Below, piece after piece: positions 4,908 through 53,500 of a DNA stretch of 64,000 nt (position 1 is the stretch's first letter; each line of letters starts with the position of its first letter). A program made the translations under genes and the position numbers. Under the pieces are notes generated by a model. It was given only the letters and a program-made list of their open reading frames with translations. It was not told the origin of the DNA and did no database searches. Where the stretch lies: positions 62,001 through 126,000 of the forward strand of contig NZ_JAAGPD010000015.1 of the NCBI RefSeq assembly GCF_017104565.1. The letters run 5' to 3'. This stretch comes from Paraburkholderia sp. Tr-20389. Its GTDB lineage: Bacteria > Pseudomonadota > Gammaproteobacteria > Burkholderiales > Burkholderiaceae.

Positions 4908-5042
4908 GCCGCCCAGGTGGCAAACGGTGTGTAGGCCGTCTCGACGTAGATGCACCACTCCGGACTGAACAGCGGATCGGTGTCGTAGGATCGCCAACGC
5001 ATACGGCGCGACAAGCTACACACAGTTTGCCACCTGGGCGGC
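4908..5042. repeat. Central inverted-repeat cassette of element A
   Basis: Left arm 4908-4935 (GCCGCCCAGGTGGCAAAC followed by GGTGTGTAGG) and right arm 5016-5042 form a nearly perfect inverted repeat around an 80-bp centre. The centre reads CACTCCGGACTGAA then GGATCGGTGTCGTAGG on the plus strand, the same orientation as copies B and C and opposite to copy D. Confidence 0.88.
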
Positions 5043-19673: not shown

Positions 19674-19704
19674 GGTCTTTTTTGTGCTGCGCACGGCTTT
19701 TGGT

Positions 19705-19897
19705 GTTGCCGATGGCGTTCGGTTTTGTTGCCGATGGCATCCGGTTTTGTTGCCGATGGCATCCGGTTCTGTTGCCGATGGCATCCGGTTCTGTTGCCGA
19801 TGGCATCCGGTTCTGTTGCCGATGGCATCCGGTTCTGTTGCCGATGGCATCCGGTTCTGTTGCCGATGGCATCCGGTTCTGTTGCCGATGGCATCCG
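19705..19897 (+). repeat. 22-bp tandem repeat, nine copies
   Basis: Nine head-to-tail units of GTTGCCGATGGCATCCGGTT plus CT start at 19705, 19727, 19749, 19771, 19793, 19815, 19837, 19859 and 19881. The first unit is variant (GCGTTC) and the first two end TTTT in place of TTCT. Because 22 is not a multiple of 3 it reads as a 22-residue peptide period in every frame, but this is not a protein repeat. It appears to be an expansion of the GGCATCCGCG motif found in the flank of the neighbouring element. Confidence 0.97.
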
Positions 19898-19898
19898 C

Positions 19899-20587
19899 GA
19901 TTTCATGTCGGTGTTCAGGCGTTGCCCCTGTGCGGGGCGGCACTTACTTTCTTTGCCGCCGCAAAGAAAGTAAGCAAAGAAAGCGGGCTAACACCGCCAA
20001 TCCTAGTTGTTGCCTGCGGGCCCCCAACAGTTCTTACGCCTCATGCGGCATCGAGCTAATCCTCGCTCGTTGCCAGCGCACCTGGATTCGCCTCACCCAC
20101 TTCACGCCCCCGCGTCACAACCTGCGTTACCAGAAATCGACTGCCGCCCAGGTGGCAAACTGTGTGTAGGCCGTCGCGATGGACGTGCACCACTCCGGAC
20201 TGAAAAGCGGGATCGGTGTCGTAGGAGCGCGAACGCGTACGGTGCAACAACCTACACATAGTTTGCCACCTGGGCGGCGCGGACGGGTCGCTGCCGTGGG
20301 CTGCGCTACGGGTGGCTGGAGTGGGTGATGCGCCTGTTCGAGGCGCTGGCAACGGGCGCAAAGCTATGTGCTGCCGCCTGGAGTGCGGGAGCCGTCGGGG
20401 GCCCGCAGGCAACAACTAGCACTGGCGGGGTTAGCCCGCTTTCTTTGCTTACTTTCTTTGCGGCGGCAAAGAAAGTAAGTGCCGCCCCGCACAGGGGCAA
20501 CGCCTGAACACCGACATGAAATCGCGAATGCCAGCGAACAAAGGCGCTCGCCAGCAAAAAAAACCAGAACAGCGACTGCGTCGCAGA
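19899..20587. repeat. Composite inverted-repeat element, copy B
   Basis: The core runs 19919-20503 (585 bp), with the same layout as copy A. In copy B both arms carry the CTTACTTTCTTTGC-type hairpin. The right outer flank ends in ACTGCGTCGCAGA at 20587. The left outer flank is replaced by the 22-bp tandem array. It lies between convergent genes; the stop of the transglutaminase-fold gene is 12 bp to the right. Confidence 0.9.
20143..20278. repeat. Central inverted-repeat cassette of element B
   Basis: 28-bp arms at 20143-20170 and 20251-20278 flank an 80-bp centre containing GGACTGAAAAGCGGGATCGG on the plus strand. Orientation is the same as A and C. Confidence 0.88.
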
Positions 20588-44754: not shown

Positions 44755-45550
44755 TCTGCGACGCAGTCGCCATTCTGGCCTTCTCGGCGCGGGCTTCGCC
44801 GTTTGGATTGGGTTCTGCATTTTCGCTTTCGCTGGCATCCGCGGTTTGTCTCTGGTTTGCTGGCGTTGCCCCTGTGCGGGGCGGCACTTACTTTCTTTGC
44901 CGCCGCAAAGAAAGTAAGCAAAGAAAGCGGGCTCACACCGCCAGCCCGTGTGATTGCCTGCGGGCCCCCAACCGGTCTCGTCCTCCACACGGCGTCGCGC
45001 TACTTCATGCCCGTTGCCAGCGTGCTAAGTCGCGCATCACCCGCTTCACGCTCCCGCGTCACGAACTGCGTTACCAGACGCCCACCGCCGCCCAGGTGGC
45101 AAACGGTGTGTAGGCCATCGCGCCGGAAGTGCACCACTCCGGACGGAAAAGCGGGATCGGTGTCGTAGGAGCGCGAACGTGTACGGTGCAACAACCTACA
45201 CACCGTTTGCCACCTGGGCGGCGCAGACGAGTCGCTGCCGCTGGCTGCCTGCGGGTAATTGAAGTGGGTGATGCGCCTGTTCAAGGCGCTGGCAACAGGC
45301 GGAAAAAGGTGCGTTGCCGTTTGAAGTGCGGGACCCGTTGGGGGCCCGCAGGCAAGCACAAGAGCTAGCGGTGTGAGCGGCTTTCTTTTGCCTACTTTTC
45401 TTTGCCGCTGCAAAGAAAAGTAGGTGCCGCCCCGCACAGGGGCAACGCCAGCAAACCAGAAGCAAAACGCGGACGCCAGCGAACGTGCAGAGCGAAACTC
45501 AAAAGGCGAAGCCCGCGCCGAGAAGGCAAGAATGGCGACTGCGTCGCAGA
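44755..45550. repeat. Composite inverted-repeat element, copy C
   Basis: 796 bp with both outer ends intact (TCTGCGACGCAGTCGCC left and complement right) and a 586-bp core at 44863-45448. The left hairpin is of the CTTACTTTCTTTGC type, the right of the CCTACTTTTCTTTGC type, as in copy A. It fills nearly all the space between two convergent genes, 16 bp and 12 bp from their stops. Confidence 0.92.
45087..45222. repeat. Central inverted-repeat cassette of element C
   Basis: 28-bp arms at 45087-45114 and 45195-45222 around an 80-bp centre containing GAAAAGCGGGATCGGTGTCG on the plus strand, the same orientation as A and B. Confidence 0.88.
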
Positions 45551-49194: not shown

Positions 49195-50622
49195 TTATTT
49201 CGCGTAGCCGACCACACCCTTGATCTCGAGAAAATCTTCGAGACCGAACTCGCCGTACTCGCGGCCGTTGCCCGATTGACGATAGCCGCCGAACGGCGCT
49301 TCAGGCGTGTACTCCGCGTAGTTCAGATAGATCGTGCCCGTACGCAAGCGCCTCGCAACGGCACGTGCGCGTTCGAGCGAGGCCGACTGCACGTAGCCCG
49401 CGAGACCATAGATGCTGTCGTTGGCCATCGCGACGGCTTCGTCTTCCGTGTCGTAGCCGAGGATCGACAGCACGGGTCCGAAGATTTCTTCGCGCGCGAC
49501 GGTCATGTCGCGCGTCACGTGGCCGAATACGGTCGGCCGCACATAGTAGCCTTCGCCGAGACCTTCGGGACGCCCCGGACCGCCTGCTGCGAGTACGGCC
49601 CCTTCGCGCACACCGGCTTCGATCATCGACTGGATCTTGTCGAACTGCTGCTGGCTGATGACGGGACCGAGATCGCTCGACGGCGCAGCGGCGGGACCGA
49701 CGACGAGTGCGGCGGCCACTTCTTTCGCGTAGCCGAGCGCTTCGTCCATCCGTGCGCGCGGCACGAACATGCGCGTGGGTGCATCGCACGATTGACCGCT
49801 GTTGTCGAAGCATGCGCGTGCGCCGCGCGTGACGGCATCGCGCAGATCGGCGTCTTCGAGGATCAGGTTCGCCGACTTGCCGCCCAGTTCCTGATGCACG
49901 CGTTTCACGGTATCGGCGGCGGCCTTGGCGACCTGCACGCCCGCGCGCGTCGAACCCGTGAACGACATCATGTCGATGTCCTTGTGACGCGACATCGCAT
50001 CGCCCACCACTTGCCCTTCGCCGTTGACGAGATTGAACACGCCTGCTGGCACGCCTGCTTCGTGAAGGATCTCGGCGTACAGCATCGCGCTCATCGGCGC
50101 GAGTTCCGACGGCTTGAGCACCATCGTGCAACCCGCTGCGAGCGCGGGCGCGACCTTGGTCGTGATCTGCAAAGCGGGCCAATTCCACGGCGTGATCAGA
50201 CCGCACACGCCCACGGCCTCCTTGCGGATCAGAATGCTGCCCTTCATCTGCTCGAACTCGAACGTCTGCAACGTGCGAATCATCGTCTCCAGATGGGCCG
50301 TACCCGTCCACGCCTGAGCGTCGTGTGCGAACTGCTTCGGCGCACCCATTTCGCGGCTGATGGCATCGACCATGTCGTCGTAGCGCTTGCGATAGACCTC
50401 GAGGATCGATTGCAGCAGATCGATGCGCTGCTGCACCGTGGTTTCCGAATACGAGGCGAATGCGGTCTTTGCAGCGGCGACGGCGCGATCGACATCGACT
50501 GCGCTGCCGAGCGAAATTTGCGCGAACGGCTGGGCTGTCGACGGATCGATTACGTCGAGCGTTTTTGGCTCGATCGGGTCGATCCATTTGCCGTCGATAT
50601 AGAACTGCGTGGCGTGCTGCAT
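49195..50622 (-). CDS. NAD(P)-dependent aldehyde dehydrogenase
   Basis: A 475-residue ALDH with general base Glu245 in HQELGGKS and catalytic Cys279 in DNSGQSCDA. LITPWNWPALQI near 142 and the SFTGSTRAG motif near 220 are typical. The substrate is not readable; neighbours suggest an aldehyde made in amine breakdown. Divergent from the cupin gene with a 9-bp dyad between them. Confidence 0.9.
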   Translation of the reverse strand: MQHATQFYIDGKWIDPIEPKTLDVIDPSTAQPFAQISLGSAVDVDRAVAAAKTAFASYSETTVQQRIDLLQSILEVYRKRYDDMVDAISREMGAPKQFAHDAQAWTGTAHLETMIRTLQTFEFEQMKGSILIRKEAVGVCGLITPWNWPALQITTKVAPALAAGCTMVLKPSELAPMSAMLYAEILHEAGVPAGVFNLVNGEGQVVGDAMSRHKDIDMMSFTGSTRAGVQVAKAAADTVKRVHQELGGKSANLILEDADLRDAVTRGARACFDNSGQSCDAPTRMFVPRARMDEALGYAKEVAAALVVGPAAAPSSDLGPVISQQQFDKIQSMIEAGVREGAVLAAGGPGRPEGLGEGYYVRPTVFGHVTRDMTVAREEIFGPVLSILGYDTEDEAVAMANDSIYGLAGYVQSASLERARAVARRLRTGTIYLNYAEYTPEAPFGGYRQSGNGREYGEFGLEDFLEIKGVVGYAK

Positions 50623-50652
50623 GATGTTTCCTCAAATGGTGTCGGCTGGCAA

Positions 50653-50681
50653 CAGTCGATGCGTTGGCGTTACATCGACTG
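50653..50681. promoter_or_regulatory. Dyad between aldehyde dehydrogenase and cupin genes
   Basis: CAGTCGATG and CATCGACTG, a perfect 9-bp inverted repeat with an 11-bp spacer, in the middle of the divergent promoter region. Operator candidate for an unidentified regulator. Confidence 0.55.
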
Positions 50682-50784
50682 CACTCAAACTACATGTCTT
50701 CAAATCGAAATTCATTGCCGGGCGGCTTTGGCTCAGACTCGCGGTTCATCATTGATGTTCCTATTTTTTTGGAGAGTATGTTTT

Positions 50785-51156
50785 ATGAGCAATGCTACTT
50801 TTACCCGCATCGATGCTAAAGGTCCTGGCGCTACCGGTTTGCAACCTGCGTTGCATGATCCTGCTGATGTGATTCTCGATGGCGCTAAAGCGCCGCATGC
50901 TTTGACTGCGTTTTCCGATGCAGACAATGTACTGACTGCGGGTGTGTGGCAGTGCGATGCCGGCACGTTGAAGCTTTCCGATCTGCCGATTCATGAAGTC
51001 TGCGTTCTGATCGAAGGTGAAGTCGTCATCACTGGCGACGATGGTCGCAGCGAGCGCTACCGCGCTGGGGATGCTTTCATCTTGCACAAGGGCTTTTCCG
51101 GTACTTGGCATATGCCTGTTGCTACCAAGAAGTACAGCATTGTGTATTGTGGTTGA
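50785..51156 (+). CDS. Cupin-domain protein
   Basis: A 123-residue single cupin of the Cupin_3 type found with amine and ureide catabolism (PIHEVCVLIEGEVVITGDDG, RYRAGDAFILHKGFSGTWHM). Enzymic role uncertain; the fold occurs in EutQ-like and ureidoglycine-type proteins. Codon choice (GCT, GGT, CCT, TTT) is markedly less GC-biased than in most neighbours. Ribosome site GGAGAG, 8 nt before ATG 50785. Followed by a strong terminator and repeat element D. Confidence 0.82.
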   Translation: MSNATFTRIDAKGPGATGLQPALHDPADVILDGAKAPHALTAFSDADNVLTAGVWQCDAGTLKLSDLPIHEVCVLIEGEVVITGDDGRSERYRAGDAFILHKGFSGTWHMPVATKKYSIVYCG

Positions 51157-51207: not shown

Positions 51208-51541
51208 CTGTTTCTGTTTCTGTTTCTGTTTCGGTTTTTGCTGTTTGCTGTTTGCTGTTTGCTTTTCGCTGGCGTCCGCGATTGCTGGCATCCGCGAATT
51301 CATGTCGGTGTTCAGGCGTTGCCCCTGTGCGGGGCGGCACCTACTTTTCTTTGCAGCGGCAAAGAAAAGTAGGCAAAAGAAAGCCGCTAACCCCGCCAAT
51401 CCTTGTTTTTGCCTGCGGGCCCCCTACGGGTCCCGCACTCCACACGGCATCGCACTATCTTCCGCCCATTGCCATCGTGCTAACTGACGCCTCACCCACT
51501 TCACACTCCCGCATCACGTACCGCACTACCAGACGTCCACC

Positions 51542-51677
51542 GCCGCCCAGGTGGCAAACTGTGTGTAGGTTGTCGCACCGTACGCGTTGTCGCTCTTACG
51601 ACACCGATCCCGCTTTTCAGTCCGGAGTGATGCACTTCCATCGCGACGGCCTACACACCGTTTGCCACCTGGGCGGC
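51542..51677. repeat. Central cassette of element D, inverted relative to other copies
   Basis: 28-bp arms at 51542-51569 and 51650-51677. The 80-bp centre contains CCGATCCCGCTTTTCAGTCC on the plus strand, the reverse complement of the centre in copies A, B and C, while the flanking arm next to it (GCTAACTGACGCCTCACCCA) keeps the usual orientation. Confidence 0.9.
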
Positions 51678-51890
51678 GCAAACCATTCGCTGCCGCTGGC
51701 TGCTCTACGCGCGAACGAAGCGGGTGATGCGACTGCTCAACGCGTTGGCAACGAGCACAAACCAATGTGTTGCCGTGCGGAGTGCGAGACCCGCTGGGGG
51801 CCCGCAGGCAAGCACAAGAGCTAGCGGTGTGAGCGGCTTTCTTTTGCCTACTTTTCTTTGCCGCTGCAAAGAAAAGTAGGTGCCGCCCCG

Positions 51891-52080
51891 CACAGGGGCA
51901 ACGCATGAACACCAACGTGAAATCGCGGATGCCAGCGAAAGCGCAGAGCCAAACGCAAAAAGCGCAGCCCCCGCCGAGAAGGCAACACAGGGGCAACGCC
52001 TGAACACCGACGTGAAATCGCGAATGCAAGCGAAAGCGCAGAGCCAAACCCAAAAGGCGCAGCCCCCGCCGAGAAGGCAA
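51891..52080 (+). repeat. 95-bp tandem duplication in the right flank of element D
   Basis: Two head-to-tail units starting CACAGGGGCAACGC at 51891 and 51986, differing at only a few positions. Together they make the right flank of D longer than in other copies. Confidence 0.93.
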
Positions 52081-52108: not shown

Positions 52109-53500
52109 CTACATAGGAAACCCAAGCGCCTTGATGGAATTAATCCACCACCTCCTCCACCCACCCCGATCATCCGCCCCATCAAACGCATTAAAAGTGA
52201 TCTTGGCGGCGATCCACCGCACAGGCTCAGGCGGAATATAAGAAGGCCCCTTCCGCGAGATATCGAGCGAAGTGATCAACGTATCGCGATTCCATAGCAT
52301 CTCGAGCCCCATCCGCGCGCCGAACCGACTCCCGGCAACGCCAAACCCGGTATACCCCGCAACAAAAACGGTCTTCCCGCCGTGATACTTACGCGCAAAC
52401 ACAGCGCCCCGCGAGCAATAGTCGATCGGCCCACCCCACGCATGCGTGAACTTCACATCGTCCAGTTGCGGGAACGTCCGATAAAACGCCTCGGCAAGCT
52501 TGTAGTAAGTACGCTCATCACGATCCTGCGCAGGATTGTTATCCCCGCCAAAGTGATAGCTGACACGTCCGCCAAAGATGATCCGATTGTCCTTCGTCAA
52601 GCGAAAATAATTGAGCTGCGTCCGCGTGTCATACACGCCCTGGCGATTCTTCCAGCCAATACGTGCCATCTGCTCATCCGTCAGCGGACTCGTCGCGATG
52701 ATGTGATCGCGCACCTGCATCACACGCCGGTTGATGTCCGACACGCCGACATTCGCCGTGCCCGTGCCAAGCAGCACGCGCGGGGTTTCGATCCGCCCCG
52801 CCTGCGTGTACACGATCATCTTGTTGCCGTGATCTTCGAGACGCGTCAGCGGCGAATGCTCATGCAACCGCACGCCAAGCTTCAAAGCGGCCGCCTTGAG
52901 GCCCCACGCAAGCTTCGCAGGATGAATCGTGCCGCTGCGATTGCGCGACCACATCGCGCCCGCGAACAACGGCGAATTCAACTGCTCACGCGCTTTCTGG
53001 CTATCGAGCAACACCACGTCGTGACCGTGCGATACATGCAGTTCGAAATCGGTCTGCAAATGCGGCACATGCTTCTCTTCGACGGCCACCGTCATCTCGC
53101 CGTTCCACTCGACATCCGCTTCGATGCCATAACGCACGAGCGATTCCTTGAAGCCGTCGAGGTTCTCCTGGCCAAGCCGCTCGAGCACATCGAGATCTTT
53201 CGGGAACACCCGCGTCGCGTTCGGCAAACCGTGCATCACCGACGTCGAAATGATCCCGCCCGGACGGCCCGATGCGCCATACGCGATCTTGCCCGCTTCG
53301 ATCAGCACGACGTCAAGATCGGGATCGTTCTCCTTCGCCTGGATCGCAGCCCACAAACCCGTAAAGCCGCCGCCGACGATCACCAGACCGGCCGTGGTCG
53401 GTCCGATCAGTTCGCGTTCGACGGCGGGCGCCGCCGGATTGTCCAGCCAGAACGGGAACAGCTTGACACCTTCGAATGCGCGTTTGACCGACTCGCTCAT
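52109..53500 (-). CDS. FAD-dependent amine/amino acid oxidoreductase (DAO family, PuuB-like)
   Basis: A 463-residue flavoprotein. The dinucleotide motif is VIVGGGFTGLWAA near residue 40, followed by VVLIEAGKIAYGASGRPGG, and the FAD-closing C-terminal part has FVAGYTGFGVAGSRFGARM. It resembles gamma-glutamylputrescine oxidoreductase and related enzymes that oxidise a C-N bond to an aldehyde plus ammonia. The exact substrate is unknown. It is 60 bp after the NCS1 permease on the same strand. Its last 300 bp are richer in T- and G-ending codons, next to element D. Confidence 0.85.
   Translation of the reverse strand: MSESVKRAFEGVKLFPFWLDNPAAPAVERELIGPTTAGLVIVGGGFTGLWAAIQAKENDPDLDVVLIEAGKIAYGASGRPGGIISTSVMHGLPNATRVFPKDLDVLERLGQENLDGFKESLVRYGIEADVEWNGEMTVAVEEKHVPHLQTDFELHVSHGHDVVLLDSQKAREQLNSPLFAGAMWSRNRSGTIHPAKLAWGLKAAALKLGVRLHEHSPLTRLEDHGNKMIVYTQAGRIETPRVLLGTGTANVGVSDINRRVMQVRDHIIATSPLTDEQMARIGWKNRQGVYDTRTQLNYFRLTKDNRIIFGGRVSYHFGGDNNPAQDRDERTYYKLAEAFYRTFPQLDDVKFTHAWGGPIDYCSRGAVFARKYHGGKTVFVAGYTGFGVAGSRFGARMGLEMLWNRDTLITSLDISRKGPSYIPPEPVRWIAAKITFNAFDGADDRGGWRRWWINSIKALGFPM

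Follow-up and report, generated by a model that had tools for sequence, protein, structure and literature searches.

A many-copy intergenic palindrome of Paraburkholderia whose orientation and interior probably turn over by recombination

Copy D of a repeat in Paraburkholderia sp. Tr-20389 carries its centre the other way round from copies A, B and C, which lie on the same 64,000-nt stretch of DNA (here called the window). Is such a centre an invertible segment, as the original prediction proposed, or the product of another kind of recombination? We approach this through the copies in the window, in their own genome (G000), in the genome of a sister species (G020) and in further relatives.

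The features of the window are as follows, with the evidence for each in parentheses.

4909..5042, plus strand: core of copy A, in the order L-core-R (BLAST, arm scoring)
20144..20278, plus strand: core of copy B, in the order L-core-R (BLAST, arm scoring)
45088..45222, plus strand: core of copy C, in the order L-core-R (BLAST, arm scoring)
49276..51156, plus strand: open frame with an EutQ-like cupin domain (residues 549-619), 3' end toward D from the left (Pfam scan)
51316..51904, no strand: copy D, the whole nested palindrome between outer hairpins (sequence, inverted repeat, hairpin fold)
51316..51541, plus strand: left arm of D, L type beside the core, with the outer GCCCC/GGGGC hairpin and a type 2 hairpin (CTACTTTTCTTTGC) (sequence, arm scoring)
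51542..51677, minus strand: core of D, reversed relative to A, B and C (sequence, BLAST, arm scoring)
51542..51569, plus strand: left inner inverted repeat of D, 28 bp (sequence)
51650..51677, minus strand: right inner inverted repeat of D, 28 bp, 27/28 matching the left (sequence)
51678..51904, minus strand: right arm of D, R type beside the core (sequence, arm scoring)
52109..53500, minus strand: FAD-dependent oxidoreductase gene, 3' end toward D from the right (Pfam scan)

A, B and C are the same element as D. The 136-nt centre of D (51542-51677) is indeed inverted relative to theirs by sequence, BLAST and arm scoring: once reversed, the D core is 94% identical to that of copy B over 135 nt, and its inner 79 nt are 92.4% identical with 6 mismatches, where about six over 80 nt had been predicted. 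The arms just outside keep the direction seen in A, B and C, with L type on the left of all four (plus strand), and the expected bounding inverted repeats are 28-bp ends that match at 27 positions. The predicted cassette is real as a 136-nt core but understates the size of the element, which reaches to about 51316 and 51904.

This element of ~590 bp comprises the core and two arms of ~225 nt each that are roughly mirror images. From the outside, an arm consists of the hairpin GCCCC-TGTGC-GGGGC, a second hairpin in one of two forms (CTTACTTTC... or CTACTTTTC...), and a core-adjacent stretch that differs between L and R. As a single strand, 51310-51910 forms one long hairpin of -240.7 kcal/mol (DNA parameters), against a mean of -110.3 kcal/mol (sd 4.7) for 20 shuffles; given this energy, and 187 related copies in two genomes, the palindrome of copy D is far beyond chance. 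It occupies the gap between the convergent 3' ends of the cupin-domain gene (left) and the FAD oxidoreductase gene (right); only the 3' part of the frame on the left is likely to be the real gene. Rfam at gathering scores gave no match in the window.

Copy D belongs to a dispersed intergenic palindromic repeat present at roughly 100 places or more. We read at least 89 copies in its own genome and at least 98 in that of the sister species. In the own genome, BLAST with the copy B core gave 136 first-look candidates, of which 40 matched over the full length. Allowing up to 3 mismatches, a 17-nt core pattern matched 214 times there (20 for the reversed control), a 15-nt pattern matched 117 times in G020 (control 0), and an arm pattern matched 184 times in G161 and 158 times in G095 (control 0). 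By such pattern counts, related species hold ~100-180 palindromes per genome, many of them at shared sites. The cores read, found by pattern or BLAST, are a sample among the matches listed (the first ~100 places per genome); 199 were collected and 187 kept, 11 of G001 and one too close to a locus end being omitted.

The core is present in 12 of 145 genomes of the genus, the own genome counted. The outer arm hairpin is commoner, occurring in 109 of the 143 genomes of the genus; the other species read have different, unrelated interiors inside the outer arm. A stricter core pattern run across named genomes matched one record, Burkholderia sp. Ac-20365. No paper on this palindromic repeat was found in a search that covered mostly literature available without subscription.

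Further sequences adjoin the repeat, vary its arms or are inserted in them. A 22-bp tandem array (TGTTGCCGATGGCATCCGGTTC) adjoins copy B at 19704-19901 of the window. A third kind of core-adjacent left arm (TTCTATA.CGGCAAAC) occurs at loci L333, L353 and L274 (G095, G139). An insertion sequence of ~1.18 kb (DDE_Tnp_1, DUF772) lies in L005, L133, L257 and 16 other G000/G020 loci. Among the loci read, all 19 complete insertions are at TAAG/CTTA of the type-1 arm hairpin, 14 pointing one way and 5 the other, and the 4-bp target is duplicated exactly in 18 of them and with one mismatch in L177. In G063, three near-identical insertions of ~1.3 kb occupy the outer hairpin loop (L245, L246, L260) and carry a frame that from its appearance is a putative transposase.

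For orientation, the 75 nt on each side of the core were called L or R in the 89 copies of G000 and 98 of G020, the two classes being started from copies that have or lack TACCAGA and then assigned by score. The order is L-core-R in 175 of the 187 copies, R-core-L in 11 (D among them) and L-core-L in 1. Shared sites were set for these sampled copies by the flanks beyond the element, which gave 61 reciprocal-best pairs between G000 and G020, 46 of them matched on two flanks. Among the 46, 22 are unchanged, 20 are reversed as whole elements, and 4 are changed in one part only (the core in 2, the arms in 2); the corresponding counts for all 61 are 28, 25, 4 and 3, with 1 undecided. The arms at the two-flank sites agree in 24 cases and are opposite in 22, which fits one half (p 0.88). 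Arm hairpin types agree on both sides in 10 of the 28 unchanged pairs and in 8 of the 25 reversed ones.

A reciprocal-best counterpart in the other species exists for 7 of the 11 flipped copies and is unflipped in 7 of 7; the core flips are therefore independent. One flipped core, at L180, is 98.7% identical over 79 nt to the core of an unflipped copy elsewhere. For the window copies, arm direction differs from the G020 counterpart in all four cases: A and B are wholly reversed with both flanks matched, D is compared on one flank, and C on one flank in a pairing that is not reciprocal-best.

The species of G161 and G095 form a closer pair than those of G000 and G020, with 95.1% identity at the D-site gene. 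After 113 loci had been read and 4 without a left inner repeat dropped, 37 site pairs were obtained, 24 on two flanks and 13 on one, with best flank pieces 94.9-98.6% alike. The element is unchanged in 22 of them, wholly reversed in 12, different in the arms only in 2 and in the core only in 1, so that the arms are opposite in 14 and the core is discordant with the arms in 3. Cores are flipped in 8 of 109; two flips are common to both species (L309/L339, L374/L343), while three compared flips are not.

Could these reversals be artefacts, assemblers having placed the repeats in arbitrary direction? The own genome is a draft of 129 contigs, but G161 (4 contigs) and G095 (6 contigs) behave alike, with arms opposite at 14 of 37 sites, and copies within one genome differ by ~16%, so that their reads are not interchangeable. 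We consider assembly error barely conceivable.

Orientation at the same locus in relatives, a comparison that the original prediction had called for, is not fixed between species, and the D site itself shows three arrangements. The R arm is on the right with the core forward in G161, G001, G095, G139 and G077; the core alone is reversed in the own genome; the whole element is reversed in the sister G020. These arrangements are most simply derived from one ancestral order by two separate events. The survey covered 30 loci out of the 69 genomes with a D-site gene match (L278 left out; L270 ends in an arm). It found the full element in 8 genomes, the own included, and an empty site in all 18 of the more distant genomes read; three distant genomes approached from the other flank (G014, G017 and G019, the last belonging to both sets) are empty as well. 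In G021 (L277) one arm is followed by other sequence, and in G130 the site ends in an arm at the contig end. At the D site of G115 (L269) the outer arms are the same, but the palindromic interior between them is unrelated. The D site of G138 (L275) is reduced to a single outer hairpin, which suggests loss of the palindrome by deletion across its base.

A phase switch, the core being flipped by a dedicated site-specific recombinase, would account for the 28-bp inverted ends and for inverted cores at several independent loci. No site-specific recombinase was found among the 38 window frames scanned in Pfam, which include both neighbours of D and 9 frames without any family. Gene direction around the copies was called by a frame-composition rule rather than from annotation. 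The gaps that hold copies (n=186) are convergent in 92 cases, tandem in 86, divergent in 7 and unclear in 1; random window points, a rough control as they were not restricted to gaps, gave 437 convergent, 1824 tandem and 521 divergent. With 7 of 185 copies between divergent genes, placement avoids divergent (promoter) gaps, and the core points with same-direction flanking genes in 39 cases and against them in 47 (p 0.45). The arms, moreover, take part in most inversions. Having seen no recombinase in the frames scanned, no gene-orientation preference and no promoter-side placement, we judge a phase switch highly unlikely; placement and core direction speak less for a directional switch than for a role at transcript ends or in structure, or for no role at all. 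What survives of the predicted invertible segment is the occurrence of both orientations at one locus between species. In the usual sense the term is not supported, since core direction is unrelated to flanking genes, no site-specific recombinase was seen among the 38 window frames, 20 of 24 changes involve the whole element, and interiors are replaced as well.

This replacement appears when copies at shared sites are compared. Core identity is 0.857 at unchanged sites and 0.887 at reversed sites, against 0.873 for random pairs; the corresponding values are 0.742, 0.733 and 0.744 for the L arm, and 0.776, 0.809 and 0.792 for the R arm. Flank pieces of the two-sided G000/G020 pairs are ~87-96% identical at best. 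Median copy identity, taken like linkage over the 175 L-core-R copies, is 0.842 and 0.844 within the genomes and 0.813 between them: paralogues within a genome are more alike than copies of different species, and orthologues are about as alike as random pairs. Several interior positions have strongly different frequencies in the G000 and G020 species. Linkage inside the copies, expressed as r2, is 0.17-0.21 for positions 1-3 nt apart and drops to 0.013-0.015 at 80-160 nt, where chance (~1/n) is 0.011-0.012; variants more than ~80 bp apart are close to unlinked.

Exact tracts of 176-265 nt, beside parts that differ, are common to certain pairs of copies within one genome, most clearly L155/L150, L015/L080 and L037/L094; between genomes, no exact tract exceeds 113 nt. 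Within genomes, 233 tracts reach 100 nt or more, of which 42 extend past the element; the longer ones, up to 493 nt, often enter an insertion sequence or belong to two copies 600 bp apart. Exact tracts can also stem from recent duplication. Near-random identity at shared sites, likeness within genomes, species differences in frequency, decay of linkage and shared tracts are together the trace expected of exchange between copies.

Plain inversion of each copy would need no such exchange. Crossing-over between the arms or strand switching in replication would turn the element, and the 28-bp repeats would turn the core. The sizes agree, long arms going with frequent whole reversal (20 of 46) and short repeats with rarer discordance of core and arms (4 of 46; 11 of 187 copies). 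The inner stem was tested for pairing in 178 of the 187 copies, selected by exact 12-mers on both sides; the most variable of its first 21 positions pairs at 0.69 against 0.51 expected under independence, in a test that is mostly uninformative because the stem hardly varies. Inversion alone would keep the sequence at its locus, yet the interiors at a shared site differ about as much as those of random copies, which points to replacement besides reversal. Nor is there a visible trace within copies, the left and right arms of one element being no more alike than arms of different elements; on the same comparison we reject homogenisation of the two arms within an element. Plain inversion as a complete account seems rather unlikely, though within-copy inversion may act on top of exchange.

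Repeated insertion, with a mobile element entering the same hot spots in each species in random direction, would explain both the random orientation and the missing orthologous likeness, and the own genome does hold one Y1 transposase. The 3.3 kb read around that gene contain neither an arm motif nor a core motif. The D site, filled in 8 genomes and empty in 18 of 18 distant ones, looks like one old insertion, and the decay of linkage inside copies requires recombination. This explanation is distinctly improbable.

Our preferred reading, to which we give a probability of about 0.72, is that the sites are old and inherited while their interiors are overwritten by recombination between copies (gene conversion), landing in either direction; turnover is probably by recombination and not by a switch enzyme. 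The interior of a copy would repeatedly undergo gene conversion by other copies of its genome. The arms being near-symmetric, a copy could pair through either arm with either arm of its partner, and the imported interior would then arrive in either direction; whole elements would in this way come to be reversed, and the orientation counts would be even. A second, shorter pairing that involves just the core and its inner 28-bp repeats, or recombination of those repeats within one copy, would flip the core only, and would produce the rarer cases such as D. The agent would be homologous (RecA-type) recombination or strand switching at the hairpin during replication. Homologous recombination between the arms, as originally predicted, comes close to this reading, which adds recombination between copies. 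The reading draws on what the copies themselves display: their number, shared sites, orientation differences, lost locus identity, linkage decay, species variants and shared tracts.

The outer hairpins, compared like side with like side at shared sites, are 0.862 and 0.854 identical against 0.812 for random pairs; from these small differences, modest evidence from sequence comparison, the ends may stay fixed while the inside is exchanged. Same-orientation pairs of G161 and G095 have slight extra likeness in the core (0.852 against 0.813). Together with the reversed G000/G020 cores (0.887 against 0.873 for random pairs), this may reflect an admixture of locus memory or plain inversion.

Long palindromes are usually unstable in bacteria. 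In all 8 genomes searched, SbcD matches were partial and weaker than the curated cut-off, the best being to positions 1-98 of 252; among 14 control genomes, 13 had a match and 8 passed the cut-off. With no SbcD over the cut-off in 8 of 8, SbcCD breakage was rejected as the driver of turnover. The E. coli hairpin nuclease SbcCD is described as protecting, with RecA, against inverted duplications at a 246-bp interrupted palindrome (PMC3315005). Tolerance of the palindromes fits this role and the 8 of 8 result, and absence of SbcCD may permit long palindromes, though a divergent nuclease may be present. A further picture, tentative and on balance doubtful, is of a freely recombining population in which arms dock at inherited sites, interiors are swapped, even for unrelated ones as at the D site of G115, and a process specialised for hairpins turns them at random, SbcCD being apparently absent.

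The orientation and content of these palindromes turn over faster than the neighbouring genes diverge, and it is the scale and speed of exchange that give them interest. They offer a natural assay for dispersed-repeat recombination, inversion and palindrome tolerance. They also counsel caution, in that a flipped repeat should not be taken for a phase switch.

Among known systems, REP, BIME and REPIN sequences are likewise many-copy intergenic palindromes that favour gene ends, and gene conversion was reportedly proposed for REPs by Higgins in 1988. The present element measures ~590 bp and has nested hairpins with a conserved, asymmetric core between them; REPs, by contrast, are described as 20-40 bp long (PMC3733652). 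As for the GTAG tag of REPs, a GTAG stands before the outer GCCCC/GGGGC hairpin in type-2 arms, but inside an element far larger than a REP. A RAYT gene flanked by the repeat was not found: the single Y1_Tnp match in the own genome (E 0.001 or better) lacks any arm or core motif in the 3.3 kb surrounding it.

Miniature inverted-repeat elements are of the MITE, ERIC and RUP types. The repeat resembles them in its inverted ends, lack of a gene and many intergenic copies; unlike theirs, its ends form hairpins of their own, which occur in 109 of 143 genus genomes and surround unrelated interiors in those read. No parent transposase was identified for it. With invertible segments moved by recombinases, as outlined in PMC5903667, it shares a short segment, bounded by inverted repeats, that occurs in both orientations; it differs in showing no recombinase among 38 window frames and no relation of orientation to genes, in having its interior replaced, and in occupying roughly 100 sites or more. 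The concerted evolution of rRNA operons, in the accounts of PMC8022953 and PMC6053082, offers a parallel in that copies within a genome are more alike than same-site copies of two species, but the unit here is a many-site non-coding palindrome whose orientation is scrambled and whose variants are unlinked. These are intergenic palindromic repeats under concerted evolution.
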